Positions 1,521 to 51,764 of a DNA stretch of 64,000 nucleotides are shown here, one piece after another. Position 1 is the first letter of the stretch. Each line of letters opens with the position of its first letter. The notes beneath the pieces are model-generated. The model was not told where the DNA came from. It ran no database searches and saw nothing but the letters and a program-made list of their open reading frames with translations. The position numbers and the translations under genes are program-made. The stretch is from Sabellastarte sp. h YS-2021 (Eukaryota > Annelida > Polychaeta > Sabellida > Sabellidae), in the NCBI GenBank assembly GCA_964017235.1, contig OZ024929.1, positions 29,137,464 to 29,201,463 of the forward strand. Direction: 5' to 3'.

Positions 1521-2486
1521 TTATAATGTTTACATTGTTTTTGATCAAGTGACCTTGATAAATGTCAATTCATACCTGTCAAAATATTTTCCCACAGATA
1601 TAGATGGTAACTGCAAAAAATTATTTTGATAGGCCTTATATTAAGTAGGGATGGGTCGGTATCAAAAATGTGTAGATCGGTTGGCCAATAGAAAACCATT
1701 CTGATTCCGAGACTTTGCGTTTTAGTACACTCCAATCAAACAGGCCACTGACAGGAAGCGAAACGCGTGAAATCAAAACTGGAAGCTTCCTCTCAACAAA
1801 ATCACAATAAAAATCCCCAAATGTACAAGAATATCTAGTATGGTTTTTTAAGCTAACATCATTTTCCATTTCCAAAAAATTCAAGATGGCAGATGAAATT
1901 TGGAAAAGTCTAAATTTTCAGAGGTCCTACAGGAGTAGTCCTTTGTACCCTAATGGGGGTGTTCCACTGGACTGGAGCCAACCTGTCAGTAACTAAAGAT
2001 TTTTCGAGGGTTGGCAGCAATGTTTACATAGTCGGCAAGGGTCAGTAATATTTTCCAGGCTTGTCGGGGTGGGTTGGCAAAATATGAAACAAGTTTGATA
2101 TTATACAGACCCGACCCGACTCTTGTTCCAGAGCATGGCTCCGCCCACCTGGAAACCGACTTGTCCTAGTCACTTTCAGTCTTGTCTTATCACTTCCAGT
2201 CTTGTCCTTATCACTTCCAGTGTTGTCCTATCATGAAACCGGCTTGTCTTTTGTCACTTAAGTAGTGCTCATTGGCACTCCATTTCAAGCATGGTTTGAG
2301 GTAAAAATATGACCAAAAATTCTAAGAATGACCAAAAACAGAGCTAGTGATCATAATTTGATAGAAAAGGTCCACATGTATGCTGTAATATATAAAGACA
2401 CCTGAAAAAACTGTTTTTATTTGGTTAAACAATAATAAAATCCCAGCTTATTTCAATAGACCAATTTCACGGAAAAAGAGGGATCT

Positions 2487-3793
2487 GGGGCCGGTTTCAT
2501 GAAAAGTCTCAAACTGAGCCAGACTCGAGGCTGAGTCAGGGTCTCAAATCTGAGACTTTTGTCTCGGCTGAGTTTTTGGCTCAAATGGATTTCACAAAGG
2601 GTGGATCAGCTGAGACCAGTCTCAATTTATGGTCTCAACTTTTTAATCTCATGTCATATATTTTGTGGGCTTATTTTTAGTTAAAAAAGTTATATTTCAT
2701 GATTATTATCCTTTTAAATATCTTTAATACTCATAATACAAAGAAATTATATGATAATATATTATTCTAAGTGATCCATAAGATTGAGACTCAACTGAGG
2801 TTGAGTCTGGCTTTTGAGTACACACTTGAGGCCTGTCACTTGATAATAGCCTATAAAGCATGTCAATTCTATTGACTTTTGTTATTAGTAAATATTGAAT
2901 ATGTGGCTGTAATTACAAAATAAAATGAAAATAGAAGATTTCAAGATTTATCAATTTCATTTTGGAACAAATTGTATCACTTTATGTATGTGTTTTTTGG
3001 CATCAAAGCTTGGACTCAAATTTGAGACATCTCCTTCATGGCCTCAAATTTGAGCCTGTGACTGAGCCAGGGGCGGATTTCATGAAAGGTCTCAGACTTA
3101 GCCCAGTCTCAGGCTGAGCCACTGGCTCAAATCTGAGCCTTTTGGCTCAGCTAAGTCTTTGTCTCAAATGGTTTTCACAGAAGGGGTCTCAGTTGAGACC
3201 AAGCTTATCAAATAACCACAGTGGTTTTCTGTGTCATGTGACCATTTTTTGTAGTCAAAATATTCTACTGATGGCAAATGTGTTCCTTGTTTGACACATA
3301 ATATCTCTGGTTAAATACCATTTTGCAATGGGAAACCTTGTAAACATGTAAAAACACCCAAAGACTACTTCAGGGGGTTGTTTTATATACTTATACCCTA
3401 TTTTCAGCCATTTCAAATTTTGAAGTGAAGAAAGAATTATGGCGGCCATATTTGAGCCTTTGTTTACAAAACTTAAGCCCACTTTCAACCAGTCTCAACA
3501 TTTGAGCCAGTGGCTCAGCCAAAGCTGAGACTGAGACCTTTTGTGAAATCCATTAAGACTGAGCCCATGGGCTCAAGTAAAATGTTCCAATAATTTGAGA
3601 CAAAAGTCTCAAGTTTGAGCCTGAGACCGGGCTAAGACCTTTCGTGAAATCCGCCCCAGGTCTCAAGTTGAGCTTGTTTGTGAAATACATTGAGTCTGAG
3701 TTCACAGACTCAGCAAAATATTCCAAAATTTGAGACAAAGTCTCAACTTTTGAGTCTGACTTAAGGCTTAAGTCTGTTCATGAAACCGGCCCC
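2487..3793. mobile_element. Fold-back / long-TIR element, outer copy
   Basis: It starts GGGGCCGGTTTCATGAAA and ends with the inverse, TTCATGAAACCGGCCCC. Both halves are composed of many CTCAAA/TGAGAC-type inverted motifs, so the element is an imperfect palindrome over hundreds of bases. It lies inside TIR element A: flanks GGAAAAAGAGGGATCT and AGGTGTCGATCAATCAAC match one continuous, uninterrupted sequence in copy B near 39229-39260. That sequence is the empty site. No transposase is encoded. A second family copy (3070-3657) sits inside this one. Confidence 0.85.
3070..3657. mobile_element. Fold-back element, inner copy nested in its own family
   Basis: It starts GGGGCGGATTTCATGAAAGG and ends with the inverse TTTCGTGAAATCCGCCCC. 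Its length is 588 bp, close to the third copy at 25030-25586 (557 bp). The interior carries the same alternating TCTCAGAC/GAGCC motifs on both arms. It is inserted within the outer copy, whose palindromic sequence resumes on both sides. A middle segment (about 3220-3480) is shared with the third copy, including a block reading ACCACAGTGGTTTTCTGTGT. Confidence 0.85.
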
Positions 3794-4383
3794 AGGTGTC
3801 GATCAATCAACAAATCTAAACCTAGGTCAAGGCTAAATATTTGGATCCCATCACGTGACCAGAACATCCAAATTCAAATTTTTGATACTTTAAGTATTGC
3901 TTTTAGGTTTTTGTTTTAATATCATATAAGAAATAAATCAATGTATTACTGCTTCAAAATATGACCAAAAAGCCACTTAAAATAGAGAATTTTGATTAAA
4001 AATGCTACATCCTGTTCAAACAACAGTAATGGCAATATCGACTGCAAGTCTAGTCATGGTGGTTGTGTATATTTTTCCAGTTCTGTTTGTTTGTCAGTAC
4101 AGCTTGTCGAAACTTGATACAGCTTGTCTGTTAGGGGTTTTGGGCTAATCCTGGTAGTTTCCAGTCTAATCCTGTGGAAAATATCCCGACCCCAAGTCAA
4201 GTCGGCCTCTAGATCCAGACAAGCCTGGATGAATCACATCCTGTTGGGGAGGTGAAACCAACCCAGATTTTTCCGGCCATTTTTTGTGGATTTTTGTCCC
4301 CAACTTTTACAACCACCCATAGAGTCGTAGAGTTGGCAGTAAGGTCAGGTCCAGTGGAACACCCCCATAAGGAAAACATACTT

Positions 4384-28496: not shown

Positions 28497-28557
28497 TTTA
28501 ATACCACAAACATCCCAAAAGTTTACAAAACCAAATACTGGGGCTAGGGTGGGAGGG

Positions 28558-29423: not shown

Positions 29424-29499
29424 AAAGCCCAACCGTAGTGAGACATTTATACCTATATTCAACATTTATAACCGTAGCCAGTGAATTGGCTAGCTCCTC

Positions 29500-30414: not shown

Positions 30415-30599
30415 CAGCTGAGTACCTACAACAAAGTATAGTATCTATCAGCACAATGACTGTAATAACATGGGCCCCTGCAAGGGAGATATGCATTAAC
30501 TCATTAATTCGTGACATGAACCCTACACAAGGTGACCACAAATACGCATCTAAACCTATATACATTGTAGCCTTAATACAGCCAGGGAACGTCAGGAAA

Positions 30600-32863: not shown

Positions 32864-32964
32864 TTCATGACTATCAGTACAAGCAAATCTACCACACTTT
32901 GTGATGTTTCTACTGGGAGACTTTGTTGTAGTATTATCCTGATTTTTGGTACAGCTGCCCAGCC

Positions 32965-34050: not shown

Positions 34051-34416
34051 CTAGTGGCAATCAAGTCAATGTTTAGGTACTGGAAATATAAATAAGCTCG
34101 AGATTCAGTGCTCTACCAGGTCGATAACAGGCTGAGAATTCTGGCTAGAAGGCTAAATGAAGGCTTGCGCAGAAAAATATAGGTTAGACCGTCCCTCAGA
34201 GTCCAAAAGACTGAGCCTGTTGCCAACACGATGACCACAAAATCTCTCCAATCAGTTTAAGTTCAGCCTCAAACACAAGAGTTCCATGTCACAATACAAT
34301 GATAGTGTCCATTTCAATCTCCATAAAACATTACAACTAAATGACCGTCTTCCATTTTATGTACACTATCTTACAACTTAAGACTTAAAACAAACTAAAA
34401 AACAATAGAATCAAAT

Positions 34417-34697
34417 AAAGTAAAATATTTTTTCCATGTCTCTCGTTTGGTTGACAAATTCAAAGTGAGGAACCTAGAAATCCAAACTACAGACTTCTAG
34501 GAAAGGAGCCAATTACATCATTTTGTTTGTCTGTTACCCCTAGCAACTGAGTAAAGTACACCACAGTACAATCAAGGTTCTTGTGATGTCATTTTGTACA
34601 CCTTTAGACTGGTGCCCAAACTTGCCTGTTAAGGTAGGACAAAAACTAACCCTGCCTTGGAGGACTGACTCCTGATGCGCCTGTACGCCCCAAGTGA
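34417..34697 (-). repeat. Ngaro split repeat A1 (5' end of the element)
   Basis: Left terminal repeat in element orientation, followed by about 370 bases of leader (34416-34051) before the first gag-like ATG. The leader has no open frame. Confidence 0.93.
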
Positions 34698-35620
34698 AAC
34701 ACTAATTTAAATCCTTTTTTCAAAGGATTTGAAAGAATTTCTATTCCTTTTGTTAAAAAAGGATGTGGTTTTGGAATTGGATTTAAATCATTTTTTTTTG
34801 CTCAAAATCCTTTTCAGACATCCAAATACTTTTTATGATTATTGACAATTGTTTTCAATTTATTTTTTTCTTCATACCTCCATTATCACAGTTTAAAAGG
34901 TGTAGAATAACTCCCTTTTCTGGACAATATGCTCTGACAGTTTATATCTGTGAAAGTCTTTATTTATTTATTTGGGGTTTTACGTCGCTTTCAACACTGT
35001 ACAGGTCATATCACGACGGGTAGTTGGAAGGGCAGAGGTAACCAGTACATACAGTTTGTTGGGGTTCTGTAATGTAAACTGCCGACTAACAGCAAGCAAC
35101 TACCAGCTTTCCCACTTGAGGCGGTGCCGGGAACTTAACCCCAGCCTCAGAGGTGGGAGGCAAGAGTGGTACCACTCTGCCACCATGGCCCCTTGAAAGT
35201 CTTAAACAAGACTAATAAAGAAAAATATCTCAAAAATAGCACCCACATAAATGAACAACAATGCAGCTATATTTTGACTTACCGGTAATCATATTCCTTC
35301 TAAAATTTTATGTTTTCTTCTCAGAGCAAGCATCCCACAGTTCATACTTTACTTCAGAAAGATACAAAGTACAGTTCTGATATACTAGTATCAGTGCTAA
35401 ATAAAGCTTGTACCTCCTTGTCAGTATAGTCTAAATGTATGTAAGACATGAAAAAAGTTATAAACTGGAAAAGGATTTGTATTTAAAACCTTTTGAAAAG
35501 GAGAGGATTTGGATTTGAAAAATTTCAAAGGATTTTGATTTGAATCTGAATCCTTTCAAAAGGATTTGACCTCAACCCTGATCTCTTTCATCTGACTTTC
35601 TTTTTTTCCAAATATTCAAT
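34698..35620. other. Degenerate AAGGATTT-type low-complexity sequence around a SINE
   Basis: Words such as AAATCCTTTT and AAGGATTTG recur at 34705-34815 and 35465-35575. The S1 SINE lies between. The same words occur at 26600-26660 to the left of the Ngaro element, so one low-complexity block may have been split by insertions. Confidence 0.45.
34961..35193 (-). mobile_element. tRNA-derived SINE, family S1, copy 3
   Basis: On the - strand it starts GGGGCCATGGTGGCAGAGTG and ends GCGACGTAAAACCCCAAATA with an (AAAT)n tail. The 10-bp duplication TGAAAGTCTT flanks it at 34951-34960 and 35194-35203. The body is highly similar to copy 1. Confidence 0.92.
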
Positions 35621-35883
35621 ATTATGAACTCATTTCAGCTCCCCAAGATTTCCTCATGCACTTCTACACCAATATAAATCTCTATAATATAATAGGTAAT
35701 AACACCAACATTTACATAGGACAAAATTGATAAAGATTCTTCAATGCACTGAAATCCAAAAAAAGGACAGTCCAAAACCAGGCGGAGATTATAAACCCAG
35801 TTAGTACCTGCCAGGGATGATGGTGGTGGGTTTGCCAAACCTGGAAACTGGAGATGGTCTGATGGGATCTGACACTGGAAGCC

Positions 35884-36133
35884 TAATACTGCTTGATTTT
35901 GATTAAAGATGGCAAGTAGCGCCACTGCGAGAAATCAACAACCTTTAAAGTAAGGTGATTATATTTACAAAGGATACAATTTAAAAGGGGAAGCCAGTGG
36001 AGTTTGTCTAGATATGGTGTAACATGACTCATTTTGTCCAGTCTATAAACAGTGCGGTAAAGAGCATTCTGAACTTTAGCAACACTGGTTGTGTTGAGCC
36101 CACATAGTTGAGACTTACAGTAACCTAATCAAT
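35884..36133 (-). pseudogene. Non-LTR retrotransposon (LINE) RT C-terminal relic
   Basis: On the - strand: GYCKSQLCGLNTTSVAKVQN, then ALYRTVYRLDKMSHVTPYLD and KLHWLPLLNCI. This matches the well-known segment after the RT thumb of CR1/jockey-like LINEs (Y-C-N-S-L-L-x-G-L ... L-Q-x-V-Q-N-x-x-x-R ... H-x-T-P-x-L-x-x-L-H-W-L-P). The remainder of the LINE is not recognisable on either side. Confidence 0.8.
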
Positions 36134-36204
36134 TACTGACCATAGCATTTGTCACCAAAAAGTGTAGCGTCAACACTTAGAAACTTACAAATGCTTCGCA
36201 AATC

Positions 36205-36305
36205 CCTTATGGGGGTGTTCCACGGGAATTGGAGACCAAAATCCAGAAAAAAGTGCGCAAAAATTTTGGGTCTGTTTCATCTCGACAGGACGTGGTACTT
36301 TCTGG
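36205..36305. repeat. End fragment of TIR family 1 (third copy, truncated)
   Basis: TTATGGGGGTGTTCCACGGG, then GACCAAAATCCAGAAAAAAG and TCTCGACAGGACGTGG, matches the inverted right ends of copies A and B. Only one end is present, and it borders the old DIRS relic. Confidence 0.6.
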
Positions 36306-36310
36306 TTTGT

Positions 36311-37054
36311 TTAGATCTACCTCCCAATCTGACTTGGGATCGCGATCCTTTTCTCCACGACTAGATGGAAACTACCAGGAAAAGCCGTAAACAAATGAGC
36401 CGTATCAAGCCCAGACAAGATGTACTGACAAACCAGCAGGACTGGAGCATTTTCCCGACCCACTCCGACTGGACTGGCAACAGCCACCACCCAGGAGAAG
36501 AAAGCCACCAAACTCCTGGGTCATGCCCTGGACACTTCAAAGGCAAGAAAAAGGATGCCACAGCAACCTCCTGGCCGACTTAATACAGACTGACATCCCA
36601 GGCTACCGGAATTTGTCAGGATACCACCTGCCTTTTTTTACCTCATCGAAGAACACATACACCACTGCATCAAGAAATCAGCCACCAATTTCAGGAAGCC
36701 CTTAGAAGTTGGATTGAAACTGGCAATAATGCCAAGACACCTGGCAACAGGAGTAACCTTGCAGTATGACTGCCTGGTTGGCCGAACCACCACCATAAAT
36801 TCATCCCCCAGGTCTGCTGAGCCATCCTTGCTGAATTCCAGGAAGAGTACTTGTCCTTTTTTTGACCCAAGTCTTTTTTTTAAAGTTTTTATCCAAAATA
36901 TTTCAATTTCAAGTTCAATATCTTTTAAGTCAAGGTTAAAAAAAATTTTTTTTAACGTCAATATTTCCTCGATGTAAAAATAAGCATCGCTAAAGTCCCA
37001 ATTGAAGGGAGAGTCTTATAGTCTCTGGTGATTTCATCTTGAAGGTTTCTGTCT
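36311..37054 (-). pseudogene. Old DIRS relic: reverse transcriptase, second part
   Basis: Read on the - strand from 37054: TFKMKSPETIR continues the RT frame that breaks off at 40004, matching FKMETPESIRASL of the younger DIRS. Further on, after stops and shifts, CKVTPVARCLGIIASF and LKLVADFLMQWCMC occupy the place of the L-P-F-G-L-x-x-A-P-x-x-F-T region, and pieces near 36560-36330 follow the thumb. The catalytic DD box is lost. The copy is much more decayed than the younger element. Confidence 0.75.
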
Positions 37055-40003
37055 TAATGCTGGTGTTCCACTGGAGCCGACCTGTCAGTAACTAAGCATT
37101 TTTTGGAAGGTCAGGAACAATGTTTACATAGTCGGTTAGGGTCAATTGTAGTTTCCAGGCCTGTCGGGGAGAGTTGGCAAAATATCAAACATGTTTGATA
37201 TTCCCCGACCCTCCCCGACTTTTGTTCCCGACCTAGGCTCCGCCCTCTGGCAACAGGCTTGTCCTAGTCACTTCACGCCTTGTCTTATTACTTCCAGGCT
37301 TGTCTGTAACCCTTCCAGGCTTGTCCTTTACTTGTTGTCAGCTTGACTTTTGCAACTTAAGTACTGCTCATTTGCAGTCCATCTGCAGCATGATGTGAGG
37401 TGAAAATATGACAAAAAAATTATGTCAGGAATGACAAAATAGCATCAGAGATGCCCGTACCCCACAGCCTGGGGAAATAATTTTCAACACCATGACATAT
37501 AGAAGTAGTGAAACAGTATAAAGGCCAGAATACTTTCAGCGCAGTGTCACTTATATAAAGGTCCAAATAATGTTTAAGTAGAGAAAATAACATCTAAGAG
37601 AAAGAAAATGTATGTAAAGATAAAGTACTAAACAAGACAATTCAATAGCAAGATGACAGCATTAATCAGTAACCTAAAAATATGAAGCTGTAAAATTTAT
37701 TAATTGGAGAATAACTGTCAATGGAAATAGCATAATTATGTAAAAGTGCATATAATAATCAGTTGCAGCAATCCATATGTCCTTGTCATAAGAGAAAGAT
37801 GTCTTAAATATGGCAGCTGAACACACTTTGGTCACACCATGAAGTACACATACATTTACATACACCCCTAACCAATGCCCCTACCAAGTGTCAACCTTCT
37901 ACATCTTATGGAATCCAAGATAAAGCCTGGACAAGAATTTAAAGGTCAAGGTCACTACAGCGTGGTGAAAGGTCAAATCAAGGTCACACCATGACGTTGC
38001 ACACCTACAATCCCCCACCAATATCCCTGTCAAATATCAACTTTCTGCACCTTACAGTTTCTGAGATATCGCCAGGACAAGATTGTATAGGTCAAGGTCA
38101 CTGCAGCAAGGTCATAGGTCAAATCTAGGTCACACCATGACGAGGCATACCTACACCCCCTAACTAATGTCCCTACCAAGTATCAACTTCCTACACCTTA
38201 CGGTTTCCAAGATATAACCTGGACAAGATTTTATAGGTCAAGGTCACTATGGCAAGGTCAAAGGTCAAATCAAGGTCACACCAAGACGTTGCACACCTAC
38301 ACCCCCTAACCAATGTCCTTACCAAGTATCAACTTCCTACACCTTACGGATTCCAAGATATAGCCCGGACAAGATTTTATAGGTCAAGGTCACTACGGCA
38401 AGGTAAAAGGCCATATCAAGGTCATACTATGACGCTGCACACCTACAACCCCTAACTAATGTTCCTACCAAGTATCAACTTCCTACACCTCACGGTTTCA
38501 GAGATATAGCCAGAACAAGATTTTATAGGTCAAGGTCACCACAGCCAGGTCAAAGGTCAAATCAAGGTCACACCATGACGTTGCACACCTACACCCCCTA
38601 ACCAATGTCCCTACCAAGTATCAACTTCCTACACCTTACAGTTTCCGAGATATAGCCCGGACAAAATTTTATAGGTCAAGGTCACTACGGCAAGGTCAAA
38701 TCAAGGTCAGACCATGACGTCGCACACCTACACCCCCTAACCAATGTCCCTACCAAGTATCAACTTCCTACACCTTACGGTTTCTGAGATATAGCTCGGA
38801 CAAGATTTTCAAACTCAAGGTCACTACGGCAAGGTCAAATCAAGGTCAGACCATGACATTGCACACCTACACCTCCTAACCAATGTCTCTACCAAGTATT
38901 AACTTCCTACACCTTAAGGTTTCTGAGATACAGCCCGGACAAACTTTTACCCACCGCCCACCCACCCACCATGGGTGAAAACAATACCCCGACAGCCCAA
39001 AATAAAAAACCAGTGCAAGTGATTATAATTTTGAAGTTAAGAGATAGCAAAGGTCCACATTTATGCTTTAAATAATTGAGAAACCTTAAAAAGTGGTTTA
39101 TTTAGTCACATAATAAACAAATTCTCGGCATATTTCACCAGAGCAATTAAAAAAAAAGGTTAAACTATTTGGATCCAATCGCAAGATATTTCTTCTCACT
39201 GTAAAAACCCATAAGCAATTTTTGGGAAAAAAGAGGATCAAGTGTCGACCAATCAACAAATCAGAAAACTAGGTCAATAGTAGATGTTTGGATCCCATCA
39301 TGTGACTCTTACTACAGCAGGATCTTTCCCAAAAGCTCGAAATTGGAGTATAAAAGGCAGCAACAAGCAAGAGGGTTTCATTGTCACATAAGATATTGTT
39401 AGAAGCACATCTCTCTCTGCTTCTTTCCACAGGATATAACATTTTTAATGACAATTTTATATTTAACATGACTTTTTCGTTCATAAATTGAAGCAGACAT
39501 ACATTGATTTTATTTCTTATATAATATTAAAGCAAAAACCTGAAAACTATAATTAAAATAACAAAACAGTAAAGTAGAACATTTAGGTCACATTATGGGA
39601 TCCAAATATTCAGCCTTGACCTAGTTTCAGATTTGTTTATTGGTCGACACTTGATCCTCTTTTTCCCCAAAATAGTGTAATGACAATACCGACTGCAAGT
39701 CTGGGGTTCTGTATGTTTCTCCAGTCCTGTCTGTCAGTATGGCTTGTCGGGACCTGCTTCAGTTTGTCTGTTCAGGGCTTGTCCTGGTCATTTCCAGACC
39801 AGTCCTGTAGAAAACATCCTGACCTCAAGGCAGGACAGCCTCTAGATACAGACAAGCCTGGATGTATCAAGTCCCGTCGGGGAGGTGAAACCGACCCAGA
39901 TTTTTCCCGCCCTTTTTTGTGGATTTGTGTCCCCGACTTTTGCAGCCAACCCTAGAGTCGTAGGGTCGGCTGTAGGGTCGGCTCCAGTGGAACACCAGCA
40001 TTA
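37055..40003. mobile_element. TIR DNA transposon, family 1 copy B, inserted in the old DIRS RT
   Basis: The ends are TAATGCTGGTGTTCCACTGG (37055) and its complement at 39984-40003; the inverted repeat extends about 27 bp (GGAGCCGAC). Inner blocks match copy A on both sides. No transposase is encoded. TA next to each end is a candidate 2-bp target duplication. On both sides the same RT domain of an old DIRS is interrupted. A second insert (37443-39008) splits the element internally, relative to copy A. Confidence 0.85.
37443..39008. repeat. AGGTCA-rich tandem-core element, long copy (about 145-bp unit, 7-8 copies)
   Basis: Units contain CACCATGACGTTGCACACCT, ACCAAGTATCAACTTCCTAC, GAGATATAGCCCGGACAAGA, then TATAGGTCAAGGTCACTACG and CAAGGTCAAAGGTCAAATCA. 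Starts lie near 37986, 38134, 38278, 38425, 38570, 38709 and 38847. It is absent from copy A at the equivalent point, so it is an insertion in copy B. The short copy at 4384-5262 shares its leader (TAGAGAAAATAA) and tail (GGGTGAAA, GACAGCCC). Confidence 0.85.
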
Positions 40004-40571
40004 GATACAAGTGCAAGGTGCACAGATCCAAGATAGGCCTCCACTTGTTTGGTTTTGGAACTAGAAAGAACCTGTTGTAGGTTAGAGAAGATTGAACCAT
40101 AACCTGGTCTACTGCCTATTTCTCTAATACGGAATGCAAACCTCAAGCAGTGGTTCTTGATGGGATTTGCATATCTGCTTATGATCAGAGGTGACCTTGT
40201 CAGAGGGGGGCTCATCTTGAAGGGTAGATTGCAACCCTCCTTCAAGATGTAGTCTACCTGTGGATTTGCACCCAGAGACTGCCAGACTTAAAACATTTCT
40301 GCAGTCTGCCTCCACATGCTCTTTTGCAGCACTGTAGACACTGGGAGGATAAAGGGACACAAAGAAAATGATAGACAGAGGAAAGACCTTTAGATATTAT
40401 ATTTTGTTCTTGTAAACTTCGGGCTTCATAAATTTCTGTTGAGGATGCCCTATTAAATTTACACAAAGAACAGGAGTTATAACATTTGGAAATGATAAAT
40501 AAACTGGTGAGTCTTGGTTGCAATTGTCCAACATTGTGACTTCATAAGCTTGGACCAATGCAGTAATTGTC
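40004..40571 (-). pseudogene. Old DIRS relic: pre-RT and start of reverse transcriptase
   Basis: On the - strand: ILKEGCNLPFKMSPPLTRSP, then ISRYANPIKNH correspond to YKLPFRERPNLS and ITSGYAGSDRQ of the younger DIRS. Further down NRFFLVPKPNKWRPILDLCT is the RT entry motif (R-L-F-L-V-P-K-P ... W-R-P-V-I-D-L). At 40004 the domain is cut by TIR element B and resumes at 37054. At 40571 the relic is cut by the younger DIRS. Confidence 0.82.
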
Positions 40572-40832
40572 ATTTTATTACGCTACAATAGTCCTACCTA
40601 TTGTAACAATATGCTTTACTGGTGGTTGACCACGGGAAGCTTCCAACCGGAGTAAAAGTTGAAAACTTATTACCCGTGAAATTCAGATAGACCGGGCTAT
40701 CCGGAACACTGGTTACGGGGAATGCCGGTGATATAGTACCGGTGCGGGTATACACACACCTGCTGGCTTGGCCACATGACCTAGGGAACCTATCAGATGC
40801 TCGATAGAGCTCTTCCTCATTTTTTGTTGGAA
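40572..40832. repeat. DIRS left inverted terminal repeat
   Basis: From ATTTTATTACGCTACAATAG to TTTTTGTTGGAA. It is complementary to 47243-47528 with scattered substitutions (for example GGGTATACACACACC against GCGTATACCCACACC). The outermost 45 bases recur inverted at 47083-47121. Confidence 0.93.
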
Positions 40833-40959
40833 GCCATCTTATCAAGTTGGCTTTCTTGTAGCTCTCACTTTGGTGAATTGTTACAGCTATTTTACTGTGG
40901 GTATACAGTATATTTTTGTGTCAGTTGTTTTATAACACTGTATAGACACTTCTGGTAAG

Positions 40960-43224
40960 ATGGTTAAGACTCCCCCTTACCAAAAACGGGGCAAATGTGG
41001 ACATTTCATGCCCCAGTTTGACTCTCATGGTTCTTGCTTTGGCTGTAGAGCCAAGTGTAAAGGTCAAGACCCTTGTGCACAAGGGGCTAATGTAAACCAG
41101 TGTGCTCCATGTGCAGCCTTATCTGAGGAACAGTGGACTCACCTCAGGGAGAATTTTGCAAAGAGGTCTGCTTATAGAAGCCGTACCGGATCACGAGACA
41201 ACTCATTTGAGGAGTTCGACACAGATGAACCGGTATTTACCGGCGAGGATCTCTCCCGGGTAGTCGACACTATTCTTGACCTGGAACCGGAACAATCCGG
41301 CACAAGTGCACCAGTGACCGGCATTAGTGCTCTGACGAGCCTCCCAGCTCCTCTGCCCGGATCATCACAAGATATTCCTGCAACCTCTGGTATTTTCGGC
41401 TCCGGACCGGTTATTTCACCCCAGGGTGAATCTTCAGCCTTTTTCAAGGCGCCGGCCCCTATGCCACAGACGGTTACGCAAGATGTTCTTCCTCCATCAT
41501 ATCCACACAGTCAAGGAGGACAATCCGTGGCGGACAGGATGGCATCTCTATCCTTTCCACAACCTCAGAGGACTTCATCTTTAATCCCTCAAACCCCAAG
41601 GACTCAAATGATTCAGAGCCACTTGGAGCAACAAAACTTTGAGCTCATGAAGGATCTTCAACAGAAAAATCAAGAGCAAATGAGGGACATTTCTGCTCAA
41701 TTACAAACTGGACTCAAGGCTTTCCTCAAGCAGTCTATGGAGCAAATGTTTACACGCATGGCGCCTCCACAAACAGCTCCTCCTCCACAAGCATCATCCG
41801 CACCGCACATTGTATCCATTACTCCGGTGTCTGCTTTGCCGCAAGCCGCAAAGATGGAAGAACCTGAACCTGACTCTGCTCCATCTCAACCACCCCCTGA
41901 AGTGAAGAAGGGCTTATTAAGGGTAAAAGGTTATTCAGCCATCACGGTGCCCACTGCTGCCTCTTCCTCTCAACCTATGCAACAACCTTCAGTTGCTCCA
42001 CCTCCAAGGCTTCAATCACCTCTTCAAGCCCTGGAACAAGAGGAATACGGCATGGACACCTCTGCTTCTTCTTTCGCGGCCTCCAGATCAGAAGAACCAT
42101 CTGACACAGGGGAACAGGCGGCCCCTCCTAACCTTCCCTTCAGAGAACTGGTCCAGAAGGTTAGAGAGTTCCTTTCCATTCCCGACCCAGCAGCAGAAGA
42201 GGATTACAAACTGGGTTCGGCACTGGGACGCGATCCACTCTTGTTACAACAAGAAAAGGCGGATAGACCACCATCCATAAAGCTTCCTATGGTGGCAGAT
42301 CTCTCGCGTCTCCAAAGCGCCCAAGATGACTTGGTTAAACCCAGCACATCAAGCACTTTGGATATTGGAAAGTTCCCCGGCATTCCACCACACAAAGGCA
42401 GCTGGTATAGCGTAGTGGATGCAAAATACTCGCAGACCCCACAAGTGGTGCCCCAGGCTTTCTCAAATATAGCGAAGCCTGGCTACAGAAGTGGACCCCC
42501 AGCTACAGTACAACAAAAGGACCTTGTAAAGCTGGAATATCTCTCATGGGAGAACATTAGCATAGCCAACTTCCTGTCAACTTTCGGTGTGGCTAGCGAA
42601 TCCTGTCTGAACAACCTGTGACTCACCCGAGACCAGAGGGAGCGTTTGTTCGACCAATTCCGTGCTAGCACGGAGGGGCCCACCAGGAAGCAAATTATGC
42701 AACAAATGTTCAGCATAACCCAGCAAGAAGCATCCCAGATGCAGTTTATGTTGGATATTAGCAGGAGCATGTCCAAGGCCTATGCGGACTTAGTAGCCAA
42801 CTTCAACTCATCCCTGACCAACCTAGTTCTGATCAGGAGGGACGCCTACCTCAGGCATGCACACCCCAACCTGGATGCATTCAGATTATGCAATCTTTGC
42901 TCTGCTCCAGTCTCAGGGGGTGACCTCTTTGACAGATCGCTCATGCAAGAGTACGAGCAACAACTTATTGGTCTGGGAGTGAAGACAGGCACCAAGAAGG
43001 AGCGTTTCCACCCCTATAAGAAAAAGAGGGGCAGAGGTGGAAATCAGCGTCATCACGCTCCCCAGGGTATGTTCTACCCAACCATGCCGGCACCCCAGTA
43101 CATGGTGCAACAGCCCTTTTACCCCCACCCTCAAGGGGGCCGCAGAGGAGGTCGAGGTGGCCGCAGAGGTCGCGGCCGTGGAGGCAACACGTCTAACACT
43201 AAGCAGCAGCAACACCCTCAATGA
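40960..43224 (+). pseudogene. DIRS gag-like protein (one in-frame TGA)
   Basis: The ATG at 40960 opens MVKTPPYQKRGKCGHF, followed by a Cys-rich N-terminus (CFGCRAKC, CAQG, CAPC), a Pro/Gln/Ser-rich middle and a conserved C-terminal part (LVLIRRDAYLRHAHPN). The C-terminus is a basic RGG-like tail (RRGGRGGRRGRGRGG), likely RNA-binding. A single TGA at 42619-42621 interrupts; the same frame continues at once (LTRDQRERLFDQFR) to the stop at 43222-43224. Without the TGA the protein would have 754 residues. The homologous part in the old relic has no stop at that place that I can identify. Confidence 0.88.
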
Positions 43225-43340
43225 CACTCAAACAAATGTGTTAGCCTCATCTCACCCTGGTCAAAAAGGAATAATATTTTCAGAAACTCTCTTGGATTAT
43301 TTCTACCCACACACCCCTCCAGAGGGGGAAAAGACTCTGA

Positions 43341-43520
43341 GTGTACAGTCCCTTCAGGAGAGGGCAAAGACTCCTTGTGTATAGTCCCTTCAGGAGAGGG
43401 CAAAGACTCCTTGTGTACAGTCCCTTCAGGAGAGGGCAAAGACTCCTTGTGTACAGTCCCTTCAGGAGAGGGCAAAGACTCCTTGTGTATAGTCCCTTCA
43501 GGAGAGGGAAAAGACTCAAA
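43341..43520 (+). repeat. 36-bp coding minisatellite, 5 copies
   Basis: The unit starts GTGTACAGTCCCTTCAGGAG and continues AGGGCAAAGACTCCTT, repeated at 43341, 43377, 43413, 43449 and 43485. In the RT frame each unit adds twelve residues (VPSGEGKDSLCT or CI). It lies at the N-terminus of the RT frame, before conserved sequence. Confidence 0.95.
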
Positions 43521-45558
43521 ATCAGTCATACCAGTGGGAGGCAGACTCAGGCGTTTTCTTACCCAGTGGGAACATCAAGGGGCCCACCGGTCTATGCTCA
43601 GTCTACTCAGGGACGGTTACAAACTACCTTTCAGAGAACGCCCAAACCTGTCCAGGGTGCCCTGCATCACCAGTGGTTATGCAGGCTCCGACAGACAAAG
43701 TGCCTTATTGACCTCTATTCAAGACCTGCTGCACAAAGGCGCTATCGAAGTCGTGCACACTCAAAACAGTCTAGGATTCTACAGTCGGCTGTTCCTGGTC
43801 CCAAAACCAGGCAATCGCTGGAGGCCAGTTATAGACTTAAGTTCACTAAACAAGTTCCTGGTCATACCAAAGTTCAAGATGGAGACCCCAGAATCGATAC
43901 GGGCCTCCCTCAGGAAAGGAGAATGGGTTACCTCTATAGATCTCACGGACGCATACCTACATGTACCTATCCATACCCACTCTCAAAAATATCTCAGATT
44001 CCACCACAAAGGCGTCACCTACCAGTTTGTCAGTCTACCCTTTGGTCTGGCTACAGCTCCTCTAGTTTTTACCAGCCTTGTGAAGGAGGTAAAACTACTG
44101 GCACTACAAGGAATCAGACTACACCAATATTTAGACGACTGGTTAATCCGTGCCCCCTCCAAGGAGGAGTGCCACTCACAAACACAAGCACTACTCAGTC
44201 TGTTGAAGGACTTCGGCTTTGTAGTAAACCTCAGGAAGTCAGAACTCCGTCCCTCGAAGAGGTTCGACTTCCTAGGATACCATTTTTTACTGGACTTGGC
44301 TCTTGTGAGGCCCACGCAAGACAGATGGACAAAACTTCAGGAAATGTTTCATCGCCTCTCAAAGAAGTCTGTTATCAGTGCAAGGACTCTTATGTCCACC
44401 ATTGGATTGCTTGCATCAACAGAGAAGACTGTAAAATTGGGCAGGATGCATATGAGACCTTTTCAGTGGCATCTCAAGAATCACTGGAAATATCCGATGC
44501 CTCTGGACACACCAGTCCCCTGGAATCAGAAAATGATACAACACGGGGAATGGTGGTTAGACCATCAAAATGTGCTACAAGGAGAATTTCTCCATCCCAG
44601 GGAACACGAAAAACTAATATTTACAGACGCCTCAAACGCAGGTTGGGGCGCTCACTCAGGTCAAGACTCTACAGGAGGTCTCTGGTCTCATCTAGAAAAG
44701 CATCTACACATCAACCTATTAGAAATGAAGGCGGTTTTTCTGGCACTACAATTTTTCAAAAAGACTTGTCAAAACAATCAAGTCCTCATCGCCTCAGACA
44801 ACACCTCATTGGTGGCATACATCAACAAACAGGGCGGCACTCGATCAGCAGAACTTTGTGCCCTAATGTGGAGAATCCTAACATGGTGCAATCAGAACAA
44901 TGTGACACTCCGAGCACGACACATCCCGGGATCACTCAACGTAATAGCGGACGGCCTCTCCAGGAGGAACCAGATCCAATCAACAGAATGGTCCCTCTCT
45001 CCACAAATCTTCAAACAAATTTCCAAACTTTGGGAGAGTCCCCAAGTGGACCTATTCGCAACCAGCCTGAACACAAAACTCCCTCTCTACGTCTCCCCAA
45101 TTCCAGACCCTCAGGCATGGGCTGTGGATGCCCTGAACATTCCATGGGAAAACCTGGTTGCGTACGCTTTCCCTCCCACCGCCCTGCTGCCCAAGGTTGT
45201 ACAAAAACTCCAATCCCAGATCTGCAGGATAATTCTCATCGCCCCAGGTTGGCCAACAAAATCATGGTTTTGGGATCTAGTGGAGATGTCTCTGGACATA
45301 CCAAGAGAACTACCACCCACTCGCACTCTGCTCAAACAGCCACTGAACAACCAATACCATGCAAACCCAGCCTCCCTCAATCTCCATGTGTGGTATCTAG
45401 GAGTTCACCCCTCAAAGAACGCGGGTTCACTGCAGAAGTGGCAGAAAGAATTGCTGCTCCTCAAAGACTCTCAACGAGAGCCATCTACTCCTCAAAATGG
45501 ACAGTTTTTCAAAAATGGTGCAAAGAGGAACAGGTGGACTTCAGGAATCCATCTATAA
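43375..45558 (+). CDS. DIRS reverse transcriptase / RNase H / methyltransferase-like protein (intact frame)
   Basis: 727 codons without a stop. After the repeats and a pre-RT segment come YSRLFLVPKPGNRWRPVIDL (about residue 135), TSIDLTDAYLHVPIH (first catalytic Asp), LPFGLATAPLVF and HQYLDDWLIRA (Y-L-D-D box). RNase H shows IFTDASNAGWGAH (residues about 415-430), LLEMKAVFLAL, ASDNTSLVAYINKQGGTRSA and ARHIPGSLNVIADGLSRR. The C-terminal part (VDLFATSLNTKLPLYVSP, IIIAPxWP-type IILIAPGWPTKSWF) is the DIRS methyltransferase-like region. The true start may lie upstream; the first ATG falls within the repeats. The 3' end overlaps the recombinase frame. Confidence 0.94.
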   Translation: MCIVPSGEGKDSLCTVPSGEGKDSLCTVPSGEGKDSLCIVPSGEGKDSKSVIPVGGRLRRFLTQWEHQGAHRSMLSLLRDGYKLPFRERPNLSRVPCITSGYAGSDRQSALLTSIQDLLHKGAIEVVHTQNSLGFYSRLFLVPKPGNRWRPVIDLSSLNKFLVIPKFKMETPESIRASLRKGEWVTSIDLTDAYLHVPIHTHSQKYLRFHHKGVTYQFVSLPFGLATAPLVFTSLVKEVKLLALQGIRLHQYLDDWLIRAPSKEECHSQTQALLSLLKDFGFVVNLRKSELRPSKRFDFLGYHFLLDLALVRPTQDRWTKLQEMFHRLSKKSVISARTLMSTIGLLASTEKTVKLGRMHMRPFQWHLKNHWKYPMPLDTPVPWNQKMIQHGEWWLDHQNVLQGEFLHPREHEKLIFTDASNAGWGAHSGQDSTGGLWSHLEKHLHINLLEMKAVFLALQFFKKTCQNNQVLIASDNTSLVAYINKQGGTRSAELCALMWRILTWCNQNNVTLRARHIPGSLNVIADGLSRRNQIQSTEWSLSPQIFKQISKLWESPQVDLFATSLNTKLPLYVSPIPDPQAWAVDALNIPWENLVAYAFPPTALLPKVVQKLQSQICRIILIAPGWPTKSWFWDLVEMSLDIPRELPPTRTLLKQPLNNQYHANPASLNLHVWYLGVHPSKNAGSLQKWQKELLLLKDSQREPSTPQNGQFFKNGAKRNRWTSGIHL

Positions 45559-46373
45559 GTGACATATGCAACTTCTTCTGGTACCTTTTCAATGTGCTGA
45601 ACCGTTACCCTTCCACAATCGAAGGTTACAGAACAGCTATCGCAGACACCTTAGGTAATACAAAACAAAACATTAGCAACAACGTGGACATTGCCAGACT
45701 CATTGCCAGTTTCTATAGGGACAAACCTAAGAGTTCCAGGAACTTTCCGAAGTGGAATTTATCTATCGTCCTACACACATTATTTCAGCCTCCTTTTGAA
45801 CCACAGGAGCAAGCTGACCTCAAATTCCTTACTTGGAAAGTAGTCTTCCTCCTAGCCCTAGCTTCAGGAAAAAGACGCAGTGAAATTCACGCCTGGACTC
45901 TTGATGGACTTTTATGCCTGGGCGATTGGGAACAGGTCCAACTGGTACCCTCTCCCTCGTTCATTGCCAAAAATCAATTAGCAAAGGACGGACCGCAATC
46001 AATTTCTCCAGTAGTAATTCCCACCTTGAAGTACAACCAAGACTCCAAGGACACGGATATCCTCCTCTGCCCTATCAGGGCCCTCAGGTGTTACCTGGAC
46101 AGAACCAGAGACGTAAGAGGGAATAGACAATTGTTGTTTATCTCTTTTAAACAGGGCCACACTAAGGATATTCAGGGCTCCACCATTTCATCTTGGATTA
46201 AAAACACCATAAAATTCTGTTACTCCAAGGTAGACAATGCAGACATGGACTTATTAGGGGTAAAAGCCCATGATGTCAGAGCGTTTGCGGCCTCCAAGGC
46301 CTTTTACGGAGGGGTCTCCATCGATCAGATTATGCAAGCCTGCCATTGGAAATCACACAACACTAGGTTCTAA
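45351..46373 (+). pseudogene. DIRS tyrosine recombinase, stops just before the catalytic tyrosine
   Basis: It lies in another frame from the RT, overlapping its last 200 bases. FTAEVAERIAAPQRLSTRAI starts the core-binding half. The catalytic half has LLALASGKRRSEIHAWTLDG (Arg I), KAHDVRAFAASKAF (H-x-x-R) and QIMQACHWKSHNTRF followed by TAA at 46371-46373. Immediately downstream TTCACTAGGTTCTACCTCAA repeats CACTAGGTTCTA from 46362; the second copy, in another frame, holds F-Y-L, with the expected catalytic Tyr. A short tandem duplication therefore created the stop. The open frame extends upstream to 43341, but that part is a shadow of the RT. Confidence 0.88.
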
Positions 46374-47082
46374 ATCACTTCACTAGGTTCTACCTCAAGG
46401 ACCTAGCTGGACAAGATCAGACAGAAGGCTCCTACCACCTGGGCGCCTTCATCGCAGCACAGCAGGTGATGCCTCCTTCCACATCAGCTCCAAGGACAAA
46501 AAAAGGGGGGGGGGGACAAAACCGGGAACCGTGTAGATGGGGCGTGTCAGAACCCTGACACCATAGAGCGGACCTTCCACCCTGCTTCAGGTAACTAACT
46601 TAGCTTTATGTTTTTTGCTTTTTCGTACCGGCTGTATCACTTTCCTGCTTACCATTAAGTTACCAGGAGTAATTTTAATTTCCATTTTCTTATGAATTTA
46701 ACTTAAGTTATACTTTTCTGTATCTCTTAACCTTATTTTCCTAAGAATTTTCTTGTGTCGTATGAGTGTTCCTTAACACTTTTTTCATCGTACTTTGTGT
46801 ACTTTGTGTTTTCAGATTCTTTGCTGCTTGGAGTGCCTACACTGGCGGTGCCAGACCAAGACGGTGCTTTCTCCCCTTGGTCTCTCATCTCAACCACAGG
46901 AGAGCTGGAGAACTCCCCTCGGTCGTCGATGAGCTCCTACAATCTGGACTACATCGAGGCCTTCTTCCTCCACCCTGGTCTCCGAATGCTCGCCTAGATG
47001 GTTGTTGCTGCCTTTGCCAGAAAGACTTTTCTTTTATGCCAGTGCCAGTCTACCCAGTCATCCGAGTATGCTGGGATTCAGC
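46374..47082 (+). other. DIRS 3' region between recombinase and internal complementary region
   Basis: The first 130 bases are the cut-off recombinase tail (DLAGQDQTEG, GAFIAAQQ in a shifted frame). A G-run follows (46504-46514), then sequence with CTGGCGGTGCCAGACCAAGA. The two small open stretches there (46755-47101) overlap in different frames and look fortuitous. Confidence 0.6.
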
Positions 47083-47175
47083 ATATTGTTACAATAGGTA
47101 GGACTATTGTAGCATAATAAAATTGGAAATTTTATTTTAAATGTAGCTTTTATAAGCTACAATACCTACCTATTG
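47083..47175. repeat. DIRS internal complementary region
   Basis: GCATATTGTTACAATAGGTA, then GGACTATTGTAGCATAATAA is the complement of the left end. AAATTTTATTTTAAATGTAG and CTTTTATAAGCTACAATACC is the complement of the right end. Together they form the joint of the circularised element, as expected for DIRS. Confidence 0.92.
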
Positions 47176-47242
47176 TAACAATAGTACAGGCCCTCCCTGG
47201 TCCTCCCCGCTTGTCAGACTTTCCACTGGCTTGGGGGCTTGG

Positions 47243-47528
47243 TTCCAACAAAGTATGAGGAAGAGCTCTATCGAGCATCTGATAGGTTCCCTAGGTCATG
47301 TGGCCAAGCCAGCAGGTGCGCGTATACCCACACCGGTACTATATCACCGGCATTCCCCGTGACCAGTGTTCCGGATGGCCCCGGCTATCTGTATTTCACG
47401 GGTAATAAGTTTTCAACTTTTACTCCGGTTGGAAGCTTCCCATGGTCAACCACCAGTAAAGCATATTGTTACAATAGGTAGGTATTGTAGCTTATAAAAG
47501 CTACATTTAAAATAAAATTTCCAATTTA
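47243..47528. repeat. DIRS right inverted terminal repeat
   Basis: From TTCCAACAAAGTATGAGGAA to ATTTCCAATTT. The outer 60 bases (TTACAATAGGTAGGTATTGT, AGCTTATAAAAGCTACATTT) differ from the left end and are represented in the internal region, which lets both ends be defined. Confidence 0.9.
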
Positions 47529-48992
47529 TAAGGCTTATTAGACCGGGCCTGCATGGATTAATAGACTTGGTACCATTTCCCAGGTATCTGACTTTACACT
47601 TTGCAACAAACTCCCTTTAATGCTGCTGATCACCTGCAGATTGAGAACCTTGTTTGGGACCCTTCTTCTCATAAGGTTTGGATTGGTAATCTGATCTCAT
47701 AGAAGAGTACTGGGAGGCACCTGACCCAGGTCCTGGAGCACTAGAGGATGCATGATGCTTGTTGATTTTTTCTTCCACCTGTCACAGAGTAGCATCTGGG
47801 GACAAAAACTGACAAAACATATTTGCTGTACGCAGTTTGTTGAGAGTATCAGGTTGTACACCAGCATTGTGATGATCTAAATAAGAATCTCTTCTCATCA
47901 GTACCAGATTACCCCGGTGCAGAAAAAGGCTGTCAGCCAGCTGCTGGAGAGAAGTGCCTAAGGCAAGATAAATGGTGAAAATGGCTTTTAGGATCACATA
48001 GAGCTTCAGAGGCTTAGGCTGATGATTTCCTTTTACTAAGTTCACCGTGAAGTGTTATGCTTTCAAAGATACGACCTTGAACTTCAGTGGTGCATCCACT
48101 GAACCCAAGCCGCCAGGTTAACAATGTCAGAATCCTCTTTCTAGACTGAGAGTCTATATCAGAAGTTTGACCAGTGGAAACTAATGGTTCATAATCACAA
48201 ACTACAGATCTACCTTGTGTACCGGTGTGAACCAGTGAATGGTCGGTAGAGGAAGCTTTGGAAGCAGAAACCCACTGGGCAGTACCAGTTGAGTGAAGGG
48301 AGTCATCCTCGGGAGACCAGAACCAGTGGAGTGAGCTGGACCAGTCGGTGGAGCATGATTAGTTGTAGAAGTGCCCTTTCAAAACTGGGCCAGAATGGGA
48401 ACCCAGATCTGGCTTTGCTTTAGAACATTTTGAGTCTTTCTTATCATGCTTGTCTTTCTTGCGCTTAGTCTTCTTCCCTGATTTCTGGTCCTTAGGACCA
48501 GCCGGGAGCATCACCAAAACAGTGGCCAAAGCTGAATTAGGCTCCAAAAAGGGCTTATCAGAAAGTGGGAGCCTTTTAGCAGGAGATCCAGGTACCAGAA
48601 TCTTTGGCGTAGAGAATATATTGCTTCTAGTCAACAAAGCTTCAAAAAGGGGTAAACATTCTGCCCACTTGCCATCGGGATCTTTTGAGTCCATGACAGG
48701 CCTGTTATTGGATGGACCGGGCCGGGGGCTACCAGTATACAAAGTAATCTGCACAGACAACATATTTTCACTACCAGGGGGTTTCCTCCTGCTCTTCCTG
48801 TATTTGGGTAGCAACTAGCAAGCATATCATTTTGCCCCAAAGTAGTCACAAATCTGGCAGAGGTTTTCTTCTACACAAGCATCTTGCCCCATACCTTTTT
48901 CTCTATACCGTGCACACTTATCGTGGCAGTCAAAAGTGGCCATAATATCACAATATGACTGCAAGAACCCGTCATCTTCTATCCCTCAGATG
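47529..48992 (-). pseudogene. Old DIRS relic: gag-like region
   Basis: On the - strand the N-terminus near 48985-48835 has the Cys pattern (FDCHDKC, GQDACVEENLCQICDYF) seen in the younger gag. The middle is Lys-rich (GKKTKRKKDKHDKKDSK). At 47990-47820 LADSLFLHRGNLVLMRRDSY and LRTANMFCQFL correspond to LTNLVLIRRDAYLRH and LCNLCSAPV of the younger gag. Several stops and shifts occur. The relic breaks at 47529, where the younger DIRS enters, and continues at 40571 with the pre-RT part. Confidence 0.8.
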
Positions 48993-49420
48993 CTATGACA
49001 ATTCAGACCTTCTTTCGCAAAAAATCTTCATAAAATAACACTGTTTAACATGAAATAAAATTAAGTTTCTCTTAATTCCCAGCATTGCATAATGGCTATA
49101 TTATTGGAAATATGCTTTTAAAAATAAAACAATTTATTTACTCAGTATTTTGTAATTTTGCAGCGATCTAATTAAAACAACCAAACAAAGTAGCTGCTAT
49201 TTAATTCCTTTTAATTCCGAAACTACATCTGAGTATTGCTTTAGCATCTGCTAAGTCATGTGACCCCATTGGTATGGACTGGGATGTTGAACAATGCCAA
49301 AAAGTATAAACAAGATATAGAAGTTATTATTATTTAAATATGTTAAGATGAGGGGGCACTTGGTATGTACTTTCTCAATCAGGTAGATATAAGACAATAG
49401 AGTGCCTGGATATTTGGATA

Positions 49421-49422
<2 letters not shown>

Positions 49423-49470
<48 letters not shown>

Positions 49471-49477
49471 AAAAAAA
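49423..49477. repeat. Long poly-C / poly-A tract
   Basis: About 38 C followed by 17 A. Such a homopolymer joint is likely to be length-variable and prone to sequencing error. It lies between the DIRS nest and the CHD gene 3' end. Confidence 0.9.
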
Positions 49478-49479
49478 TC

Positions 49480-51764
49480 CTAGTAACAAGTATGTATGAA
49501 ATGAAAGAAAGTCTTTAAATGTAGTTTTTATTATGAAAAAGTGTCTTTGTATTTGATATAAAGGTCTATATAAATTCACAACACGTTACCACTTATATGT
49601 AACAGTACACATAATAAATATGACACTTTACAAATATACAACTTAGAAGTTGCAACCATTAATAAACACAGAAAAATACTTTTAAAGGCAGACCAATTGC
49701 CTATAATGCGATAATTATTTACAATATCTTCTATCTTAGAGATGCAAACTAAAAATACAGCTTTAAAGACAGGTTTGATATAAATAGTGATGAATTCTGG
49801 TTGAGTTGAAGGCATTTTACATCAAATTTCTCATTCCCAGTTTTGTAAATATCATGAACATAAACATGGTCAGCAAAATAAAATCAATCAAATTGTTTGA
49901 CCTTAGAGTCAGGAAACATGATCATTTGTTTTAATCATTCCAGTCACATGATCAACTCTCCGGAAAAAACAAAACAGTTTTTAATTAAGCTATCTCATAA
50001 TCTGGATTAACATGCATACTCGACCATTTTGCCTAAAATATAACTTGTCATAAACCAACATATTTTTTATTTCCGCAGAATTTCTCTTGTTTTGAGAATG
50101 TCTGACAATTCTGAAAATAAGAACACATACCACAAACCTGGGGCCTGTAAATAGAATCATTCATAAAACAACAAACACTTAATGACAATGTAACAGCACT
50201 TTTACTAAAGAATTCAGGGAGTAAATAGAAGCATTCTTTGAGTAGTCGTAAAACTGTCAGCATTCCGTACATTGTTATTACAGATTTCCTCCAGATCGTA
50301 AATGTGTATTCAAATGTCTCATTTACAACCACCTTACTGTACAACACTTCAATAACTTTGCTTTATATAACAATAACTTAAATTTAGTTAGATGTAAAGA
50401 GCTGAGGGTTTGCATAACTATAACTTAACAATAGGGTCCGAGTTGTCTTTAACTTTGAAGGGTTTTTACGAAAAAATTTAACAAACACTAAACTAAGATT
50501 TTGACTTACACAAGAGTTTACAAATGTAGAGTTATTTAAGAGCTAACAAATTTATAAGCAGAATGAAGGCTTTAACTTACAGGCCCCAGATTTGTCCCAG
50601 TTAACAAAGCAAGTTTTTAAAAAAAGTACAAGGGTATGTTTTCAACACATATTTTACCCTGATGCCAATAAAATGGCCGAAAAATTGGACTGGTAAATTC
50701 ATACTGTTTGAATGGTACCAATCCCAAGTATGCACAAGTTTGTACATTACTGTAAGTAGTACAAATATTGCAGACTGCACCTTTGAAATGCAATGAATAT
50801 CTTTGGTAAAAAAAATTCACTTCAAAAGTAAAAACAAACTTTAACGTTTTAACAACCACTAGCATGTATAAACAAATCTTGGATCTTTACAAACATGGTT
50901 GAGCGTTAAAATAGAAACTCTTACGGTATTGTTGATCAGTTATTTATCTCAACCACTGACCTCTCGATTAGTTTTAAATTCATTGGGATAACTACATTTA
51001 ATGCCCAATTTTTATTGCTTTTGACATCATTTCATTGAAACACAACTTGACAAACTAATTTATTCAGGAAAACTATTACTGGTGTGTAATTTGGAATGCA
51101 TGCCTTTGTCAGTCAAAAATACTAGAAATTCTGACAGAGAAACACCAATACAATTTGGAATCGACCGTTATTGTTGGTGCTGCCTAGTCACTAACCACCA
51201 CAGATAAACCATTTGTAGAGGTTACCTGGACAGACTCGGGTATACTTTGTTACCCTTAGTTCTAGTAATTTCAGTCTCACTCTTTTGACAGATGTTTTAC
51301 CGCAAAATAGAAAACATACCCAACACAGTCACAATGTGTTTGGCATTTGGAACATGGTCTCTCTGAAATTATCTGTGGATGTTTTCAGTTTACTTTGAAA
51401 AGAAGTCTTTTTCACAATTTCTTCTTTTTAAATAAGCTAATTAAGAAACCCTTAAAATAAAAGGATGCAAATTTACATCACAAAGCTTTTTCCATTCTGA
51501 ATTAGAATACACACCCTAATATCTGCACATGTTAGCAAAGTACAGCTATGGTTGGATATTAGACTGTCCATAAAATGAAGAATTTCGTACAACATCATCT
51601 GAAACCATAAATTTAGCAAATGAAAACCAGTCTGATAATCCTGAAGTCATGAAATTTAAAACCAGAAAGTTGGATAAAAGAGGATATTCCTGGATTTATA
51701 GTCTGTAGCACTTGTCTTTCTCCCATTCAGTTTTCCAATGTGCGTGTCAGTCGACGGTGATGAC
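49480..51764 (-). other. CHD4: Probable 3' UTR and flank of the CHD gene
   Basis: No coding feature is seen on either strand. In the - sense, AATAAA candidates occur near 49525 and 49612. The length of the UTR is not determined. Open stretches here are short and lack codon structure. Confidence 0.4.

Follow-up and report, generated by a model that had tools for sequence, protein, structure and literature searches.

Thirteen kilobases of the genome of the sabellid annelid Sabellastarte sp. h YS-2021 (assembly GCA_964017235.1) raise the question of how a single retrotransposon of the DIRS class came to lie in three separated pieces on one strand, with unrelated elements filling the gaps. The segment is part of a 64,000-nucleotide stretch, hereafter the window, at C3:29137464-29201463 (contig OZ024929.1), and the source genome that we searched comprises 1.786 Gb in 647 contigs. 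The reading that we favor, with a probability of about 0.87, is that an old minus-strand DIRS was split by a PIF/Harbinger-type element with terminal inverted repeats (TIRs), here called B, which later likely came to bear a Helentron-type (HINE) insert, and, independently, by a young DIRS on the plus strand, which probably arrived through tyrosine-recombinase exchange of a circular copy. The coordinates of these features are collected in Table 1.

With the reverse transcriptase (RT) of the young DIRS as query we obtained 120 DIRS relatives among the matches listed, and with a gag-bearing relative a further 109, for a total set of 229. In tblastn these proteins match the minus strand of the window in order, with gag at 48946-47605, pre-RT and RT at 40389-40002 and RT again at 37067-36971. 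The gag region is matched by 54 of the 229 relatives, and 47 of them match gag and RT pieces in order on that one strand. After removal of 40572-47528, the spacing between anchors fits that of the relatives within 1 to 20 nt for the best 40 of 101 gag-RT pairs, the remaining 61 fitting no better. The original prediction had held that homology would be continuous across both joints once the insertions are excised, and the relatives do run in order across the two, as one DIRS family. Genome searches with the gag piece gave 61 matched stretches, the window itself included (40 scored of 438 candidates), and those with the pre-RT piece gave 41 (40 scored of 1431); a profile built from the 120 RT relatives found no match of note in the gag piece.

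The gag region and the pre-RT and RT start of the proposed old element are upheld by these matches, and its RT piece is not for most of its proposed length of 37054-36311. DIRS matches mostly end at or before 36971, with seven relatives extending to 36947-36905, and the continuation to 36311 was therefore rejected. All six of the longer paralogs have RT past the point at which the window's stops, and three of them (L031, L032 and L033) match a relative to the end of its recombinase. Because paralogs carry more RT and the window does not, we regard the old DIRS as truncated at ~36971. It is about 75% identical to its scored copies over the best long stretches and appears to be a relic, classed by homology only, from which the segment for the internal complementary region (ICR) and the tyrosine recombinase has been lost through truncation.

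The original prediction also proposed that uninterrupted copies of the old DIRS be sought in the same genome, and paralogs indeed bridge both joints. Counts were taken from 28 excised loci, all of them read; one place on C4 and one on C20, each represented by two loci, were counted once, and the B-joint count excludes the window locus (L009), second-hit rows, L021 (no small-gap row) and L023 (801 extra nt). Five distinct places bridge the young-DIRS joint, four of which leave exactly 4 nt (ATTT, ATTT, ATTC and ATAT), and the remnant at the window's own young-DIRS ends is ATTT. The B joint is bridged by 16 distinct places, and 13 leave exactly 3 nt, the length of one target copy. Sister copies are thus unsplit at both joints; the B joint retains a single 3-bp target copy, and the young DIRS is without target duplication. 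Neither flanks from different families nor overlapping flanks, which would speak against such a nest, were found: the flanks belong to the same DIRS family, and paralogs cross both joints with one short target copy between.

The 3-nt remnant therefore places B at 37058-40000, between 3-bp target copies of TAA (37055-37057) and TTA (40001-40003), the TAA likely being a mutated TTA. Compared with the relatives' proteins, the earlier cut at 37055-40003 gives -3 nt in 188 of 438 anchor pairs, as expected of a cut that takes away both target copies where one should stay; a second anchor, in another frame, yields -14 nt in 187 pairs, and the remaining 63 differ from both. A TA duplication, or an in-register TTA duplication at 37054-37056, was rejected since the copies at 37055-37057 and 40001-40003 fit both the paralog length and the relatives' frame. 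The two gaps hold the elements assigned to them, and their limits have shifted, from 40572-47528 to 40573-47524 for the young DIRS and inward by one target copy on each side for B. Three observations count against this picture: one of the five places at the young-DIRS joint (L015) gives -3, three of the 16 at the B joint deviate (two by -6 and one by +6 nt), and the two target copies of B are one base apart.

PIF/Harbinger elements insert at a 3-bp TWA target. Copy A, a second member of the same TIR family in the window, is flanked by TAA on both sides, and B by TAA and TTA with the single 3-nt copy in the bridging paralogs described above. The TIR TGGGGGTGTTCCAC is common to copy A and to a PIF/Harbinger transposase relic left of the old DIRS, where it is preceded by TTA; this shared terminus ties A and B to PIF/Harbinger. 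The relic family yielded 4880 first-look candidates, and its scored matches besides the window's stop at or before 36857. One member, L082, carries DDE_Tnp_4 downstream (E 1.1e-23), PF13359 is carried by four of the relic's 64 protein relatives, and Pfam assigned no family to one frame of the relic at 36225-36857. Like PIF/Harbinger elements and their non-autonomous relatives, A and B have 3-bp TAA/TTA target copies and the TIR of a DDE_Tnp_4-encoding family; unlike PIF/Harbinger, B is without a long open reading frame (ORF) and is enlarged by the HINE insert and a palindromic segment. The palindrome occupies 39220-39672 with arms of ~87 nt, and its loop matches copy A at 3793-4023 in opposite orientation, with no right arm matched there. 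The insert that copy A carries at 2482-3792 is related to 25030-25589 and is missing from a third TIR copy, at L041.

The tandem-core insert in B, an array of 7.6 units of 146 bp, is missing at the same spot in copy A, as had been predicted, and also in the L041 copy. Read by eye, it appears to have a terminal palindrome and a microsatellite-like stretch, and to have entered a T-run without duplication. In these respects it resembles the Helentron-associated HINEs, including Cg_HINE of the oyster, for which the consulted passages of two papers describe such features together with central tandem repeats of 140-180 bp (PMC7492417, PMC4067079); the likeness to Cg_HINE is one of published description. 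In a search of the genome with the border between B and the insert (best 40 of 5515 candidates), all 39 other places lack B beside the insert; their HINE matches start at 37414-37438 (query 95-119), and B before 37414 is never covered. The pairing of B with a HINE is unique among the scored places, and the 39 insert ends without B indicate that the insert moves on its own. Nesting alone would equally allow the HINE to have entered B before B reached the old DIRS, so that B arrived composite, and the search scored only the best 40 candidates. This course of events is unlikely, however, given that none of the 39 other scored HINE places adjoins B and that the HINE reaches 97% identity with its closest scored copies, against 90% for B and its closest.

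Entry of the HINE into a B already in place agrees with the order of events as originally read, with the old DIRS first, then B and the young DIRS, and the tandem core later in B; this order is supported by the bridging paralogs and the HINE ends. Which of B and the young DIRS came first does not follow from the nesting, because each sits in a different part of the old DIRS. The only guide to their relative age would be the identity of each to its closest scored copy; for the young DIRS this is 97% at its left end and 99% at its right, and it ranks layers rather than insertion dates. Arrays of this kind also occur elsewhere. A second, shorter tandem-core element with the same terminal GACAGCCC lies at 4870-5257, just outside copy A. 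At L029 (C4:139227000-139236900), two DIRS stretches of a further pile-up enclose a HINE array, which shows that such nests recur, and at L047 a young DIRS lies inside a HINE tandem array.

The young DIRS shows the anatomy of a DIRS1-like element, with inverted terminal repeats (40593-40832/47243-47482; 240 nt, 95%) and an ICR, RT with RNase H, a tyrosine recombinase frame and, in four of the five bridging paralogs with their exactly 4 nt, no target duplication. We take the published account of such elements to be that of Piednoel et al. 2011. Its consulted passages likewise describe inverted terminal repeats, two ICRs that overlap on a short circle junction, an arrangement of gag, RT-RNase H and recombinase, and no target duplication (PMC3266345). 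The RT_RNaseH match in the young DIRS, at 1e-4, is below its cut-off. The recombinase frame is 56% and 60% identical to the relatives P0116 and P0146, both of which match Phage_integrase below the curated cut-off, and the window's own frame gave no integrase match in Pfam profile scans. Ahead of its last segment the frame is cut short by a tandem duplication of 20 bp (46356-46395), and with both gag and recombinase frames broken the young copy looks inactive. An in-frame 36-bp tandem repeat (43315-43517; 5.7 copies, 93%) lies between gag and RT.

We read the insertion rule of the young DIRS from its other copies, whose ends were scored as the best 40 right ends of 1167 candidates and the best 40 left ends of 1033. 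Thirty right-end loci were retrieved and 29 parsed, L051 being the one unparsed. The right core is CCAA-NTT in 27 of the 29 (TTT 13, ATT 12, GTT 1, CTT 1); 16 cores differ from TTT, 14 of these at the first base only. At the left end the core is TTT in all 27 distinct parsed ends, for which the script fixed TT at core positions 2-3, so that the first base alone is a free count. The first 16 left-end regions comprised five intact ends, two damaged ones (L067, L077) and nine regions without a left end; three of seven further regions yielded one, re-sought by distance and then by search. L103 fell outside the script's parse and has TTT in a separate reading, and L105 and L106 share one left flank, counted once. 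Among the 17 copies with both ends, the left core is TTT in every case and the right core TTT in eight, ATT in eight and CTT in one. A pattern scan for the internal circle-junction copy matched only four of 29 copies, and alignment was used instead; of 28 such copies, 27 have TTT (26 called by script and L060 by eye) and one, L054, has TTG.

The variable first base at the right end is probably a trace of the target. In the mechanism that we propose, the young DIRS would enter by tyrosine-recombinase exchange of a circular copy whose junction reads ...CCAA-TTT-TATT..., and its partner in recombination would be an NTT in the genome, the crossover falling at the 5' edge of these three bases. The left end would then keep the element's TTT and the right end would run into the target's NTT. 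We place the crossover at this edge because no simpler exchange would leave the left end constant and still derive the right trinucleotide from the target. A match would be needed mainly at TT, together with a weak preference for A at -8 and -9 and for T at +5. In the 27 right ends that remain when L049 and L055 (CAT, TTG) are left out, A stands at -8 in 20 (p 4e-6) and at -9 in 18 (p 2e-4), and T at +5 in 21 (p 2e-6), relative to 4576 background NTT sites; these are raw p values from about 25 positions looked at. The circle junction itself has A, A and T at -9, -8 and +5. Of the 1.5-kb right flanks of the 29 copies, five match DIRS proteins, among them that of the window; this is a bare count from which we claim no preference for DIRS targets.

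The target itself can be compared for six insertions that fell in repeats and for which the window and the fetched loci contain sister sites; the rows are not independent, some deriving from one array or from overlapping loci. The right trinucleotide is shared by the sister sites of L039 (ATT, 8 of 8 rows), L047 (GTT, 7 of 7) and L053 (ATT, 2 of 2), so that the odd right-end base is that of the sister site in three of five testable non-TTT cases; for the window's own insertion, three of the five bridging places have TTT. Several results weigh on the other side. Two of the 29 right cores are not NTT (TTG, CAT), the window's own site reads TTC and TAT in two of the five bridging places, both sister rows of L048 (ATT) read CCT, and none of the 18 sister rows of L050 (ATT) has ATT in register (TTA 6, TTG 7, five others). 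The right ends that were read represent 30 loci of 1167 candidates, 12 of the 24 forks in the tree of copies are open, and the young copy, its recombinase frame broken, cannot itself show activity.

The variable base might instead be a family polymorphism passed from parent to daughter. Two inherited types would explain why just two states, ATT and TTT, account for 25 of 27, and also the excess of A and T over background NTT sites. In a tree built from the final 1.8 kb of the copies, however, the right-end state changes 12 times, compared with a mean of 10.6 for shuffled states (as low in 188 of 200 shuffles), which gives no indication that it is inherited in blocks. Copies close together on the tree carry both states, and the sister sites have ATT or GTT at three insertions, all of which makes an inherited origin improbable.

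A further alternative is an exchange that needs all three core bases matched, the mismatches being later point mutations. This follows the published model, in whose consulted passages the circle's 3-bp junction recombines with an identical genomic 3 bp (PMC3266345). The window's own core, TTT, agrees with such a rule, and across the family the 16 deviating right cores do not; 14 of them deviate at the first base alone and the left end keeps its T in 27 of 27, whereas random mutation would strike both ends and all positions. We give this explanation very little weight. The difference from the published model is thus between an identical 3-bp target and a near-constant TT whose first base apparently varies with the target, and we keep the young DIRS among DIRS1-like elements because the identical-target rule belongs to the model and not to the anatomy. 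That the three DIRS pieces are unrelated fragments joined by chance or misassembly is scarcely credible, for although they are short and decayed and 50-110 nt at the left edge are without assignment, the same family, order, strand and abutment are found at independent places in the genome.

The asymmetry between the ends recurs in Table 3 of the published account. By our own count, it lists eight elements with a start unlike the end and a three-letter junction; in seven of them the junction equals the start, and in the remaining one, AcasDIRS1, which has a left extension only, it equals the end (PMC3266345). Five mollusc elements in that table have right extensions of 46-49 nt, and that of the young DIRS would be ~45 nt (47483-47527). 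The section containing Table 3 makes no remark on the asymmetry between start and junction, the other sections of the paper having been covered in passages, and a brief literature search on the DIRS1 circular junction, target and integration turned up nothing beyond this source.

Table 1. Positions in the window of the elements of the nest and of related features
Feature	Position	Strand	Basis and remarks
Old DIRS, 5' piece, gag region	47525..49081	-	tblastn with relatives; paralog DNA matches to 49081
Old DIRS, middle piece, gag-RT linker and RT start	40004..40572	-	Profile match E 7e-16; relatives; 39 other places (40 scored of 1431)
Old DIRS, last clearly recognizable RT piece	36971..37054	-	tblastn; weaker matches down to 36905
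TIR element B	37058..40000	+	PIF/Harbinger-type ends, 28-bp perfect termini, no ORF of at least 120 aa
Helentron-type (HINE) tandem-core insert	~37440..39003	-	146-bp repeats 37861-38949; A/T-run end, borders uncertain by a few nt
Young DIRS1-like retrotransposon inside old DIRS	40573..47524	+	Inverted terminal repeats and ICR; ends TTT TATT... and ...CCAA; empty sites
Gag frame of young DIRS	40936..43224	+	Stop-to-stop ORFs, one frame; in-frame stops 42619-42621, 43222-43224
RT-RNase H ORF of young DIRS	43225..45558	+	RVT_1 E 1.7e-22
Tyrosine recombinase frame of young DIRS	45270..46373	+	56-60% identical to relatives
ICR of young DIRS	47080..47183	+	Halves complementary to left and right ends; circle-junction copy CCAA-TTT-TATT as complement
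TTT at the right end of young DIRS, likely the NTT of the target and part of old DIRS	47525..47527	+	Bridging paralogs; paired ends
Copy A of TIR family	1954..4368	+	TAA target copy on both sides; without HINE; own insert 2482-3792
PIF/Harbinger transposase N-terminal relic	~36225..36857	+	Own TIR near 36212; family member L082

Several further features lie in the window. A second kind of tyrosine-recombinase retrotransposon, with an Ngaro/PAT-like layout, occupies 27901-34697 on the minus strand; its RT is at 30728-31978, and its split direct repeats pair 27901-28496 with 28840-29423 and 28558-28839 with 34417-34697, both at ~97%. What we take to be a relic of a long interspersed nuclear element lies at ~36150-35950, a call made by eye from its translation against motifs of such elements. 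An ORF with a PARP catalytic domain (22618-23112; E 1.1e-18) is likely a host gene exon. Long tandem arrays with units of 133, 321 and 79 bp are found at 55389-58760 and 398-1528, a homopolymer of 39 C (49422-49460), followed by an A-run, is possibly a sequencing artefact, and Rfam gave no match over 33000-51000.

Nested transposons are themselves routine, and what this nest provides is a set of empty sites, exact to the base, for three classes of element together. We lean toward the broader view that DIRS insertions hold a fossil of their target, in which the left end would invariably come from the element and the base that follows the right end invariably from the target. What the recombinase reads would then be a degenerate junction (AA at -9/-8, TT, and T at +5) and not three identical base pairs, with a polarity perhaps set by the side of the extension. 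According to the consulted passages, the model of DIRS integration was drawn from terminal structure (PMC3266345), and the nest supplies a set of natural insertions in which the target rule may be read.

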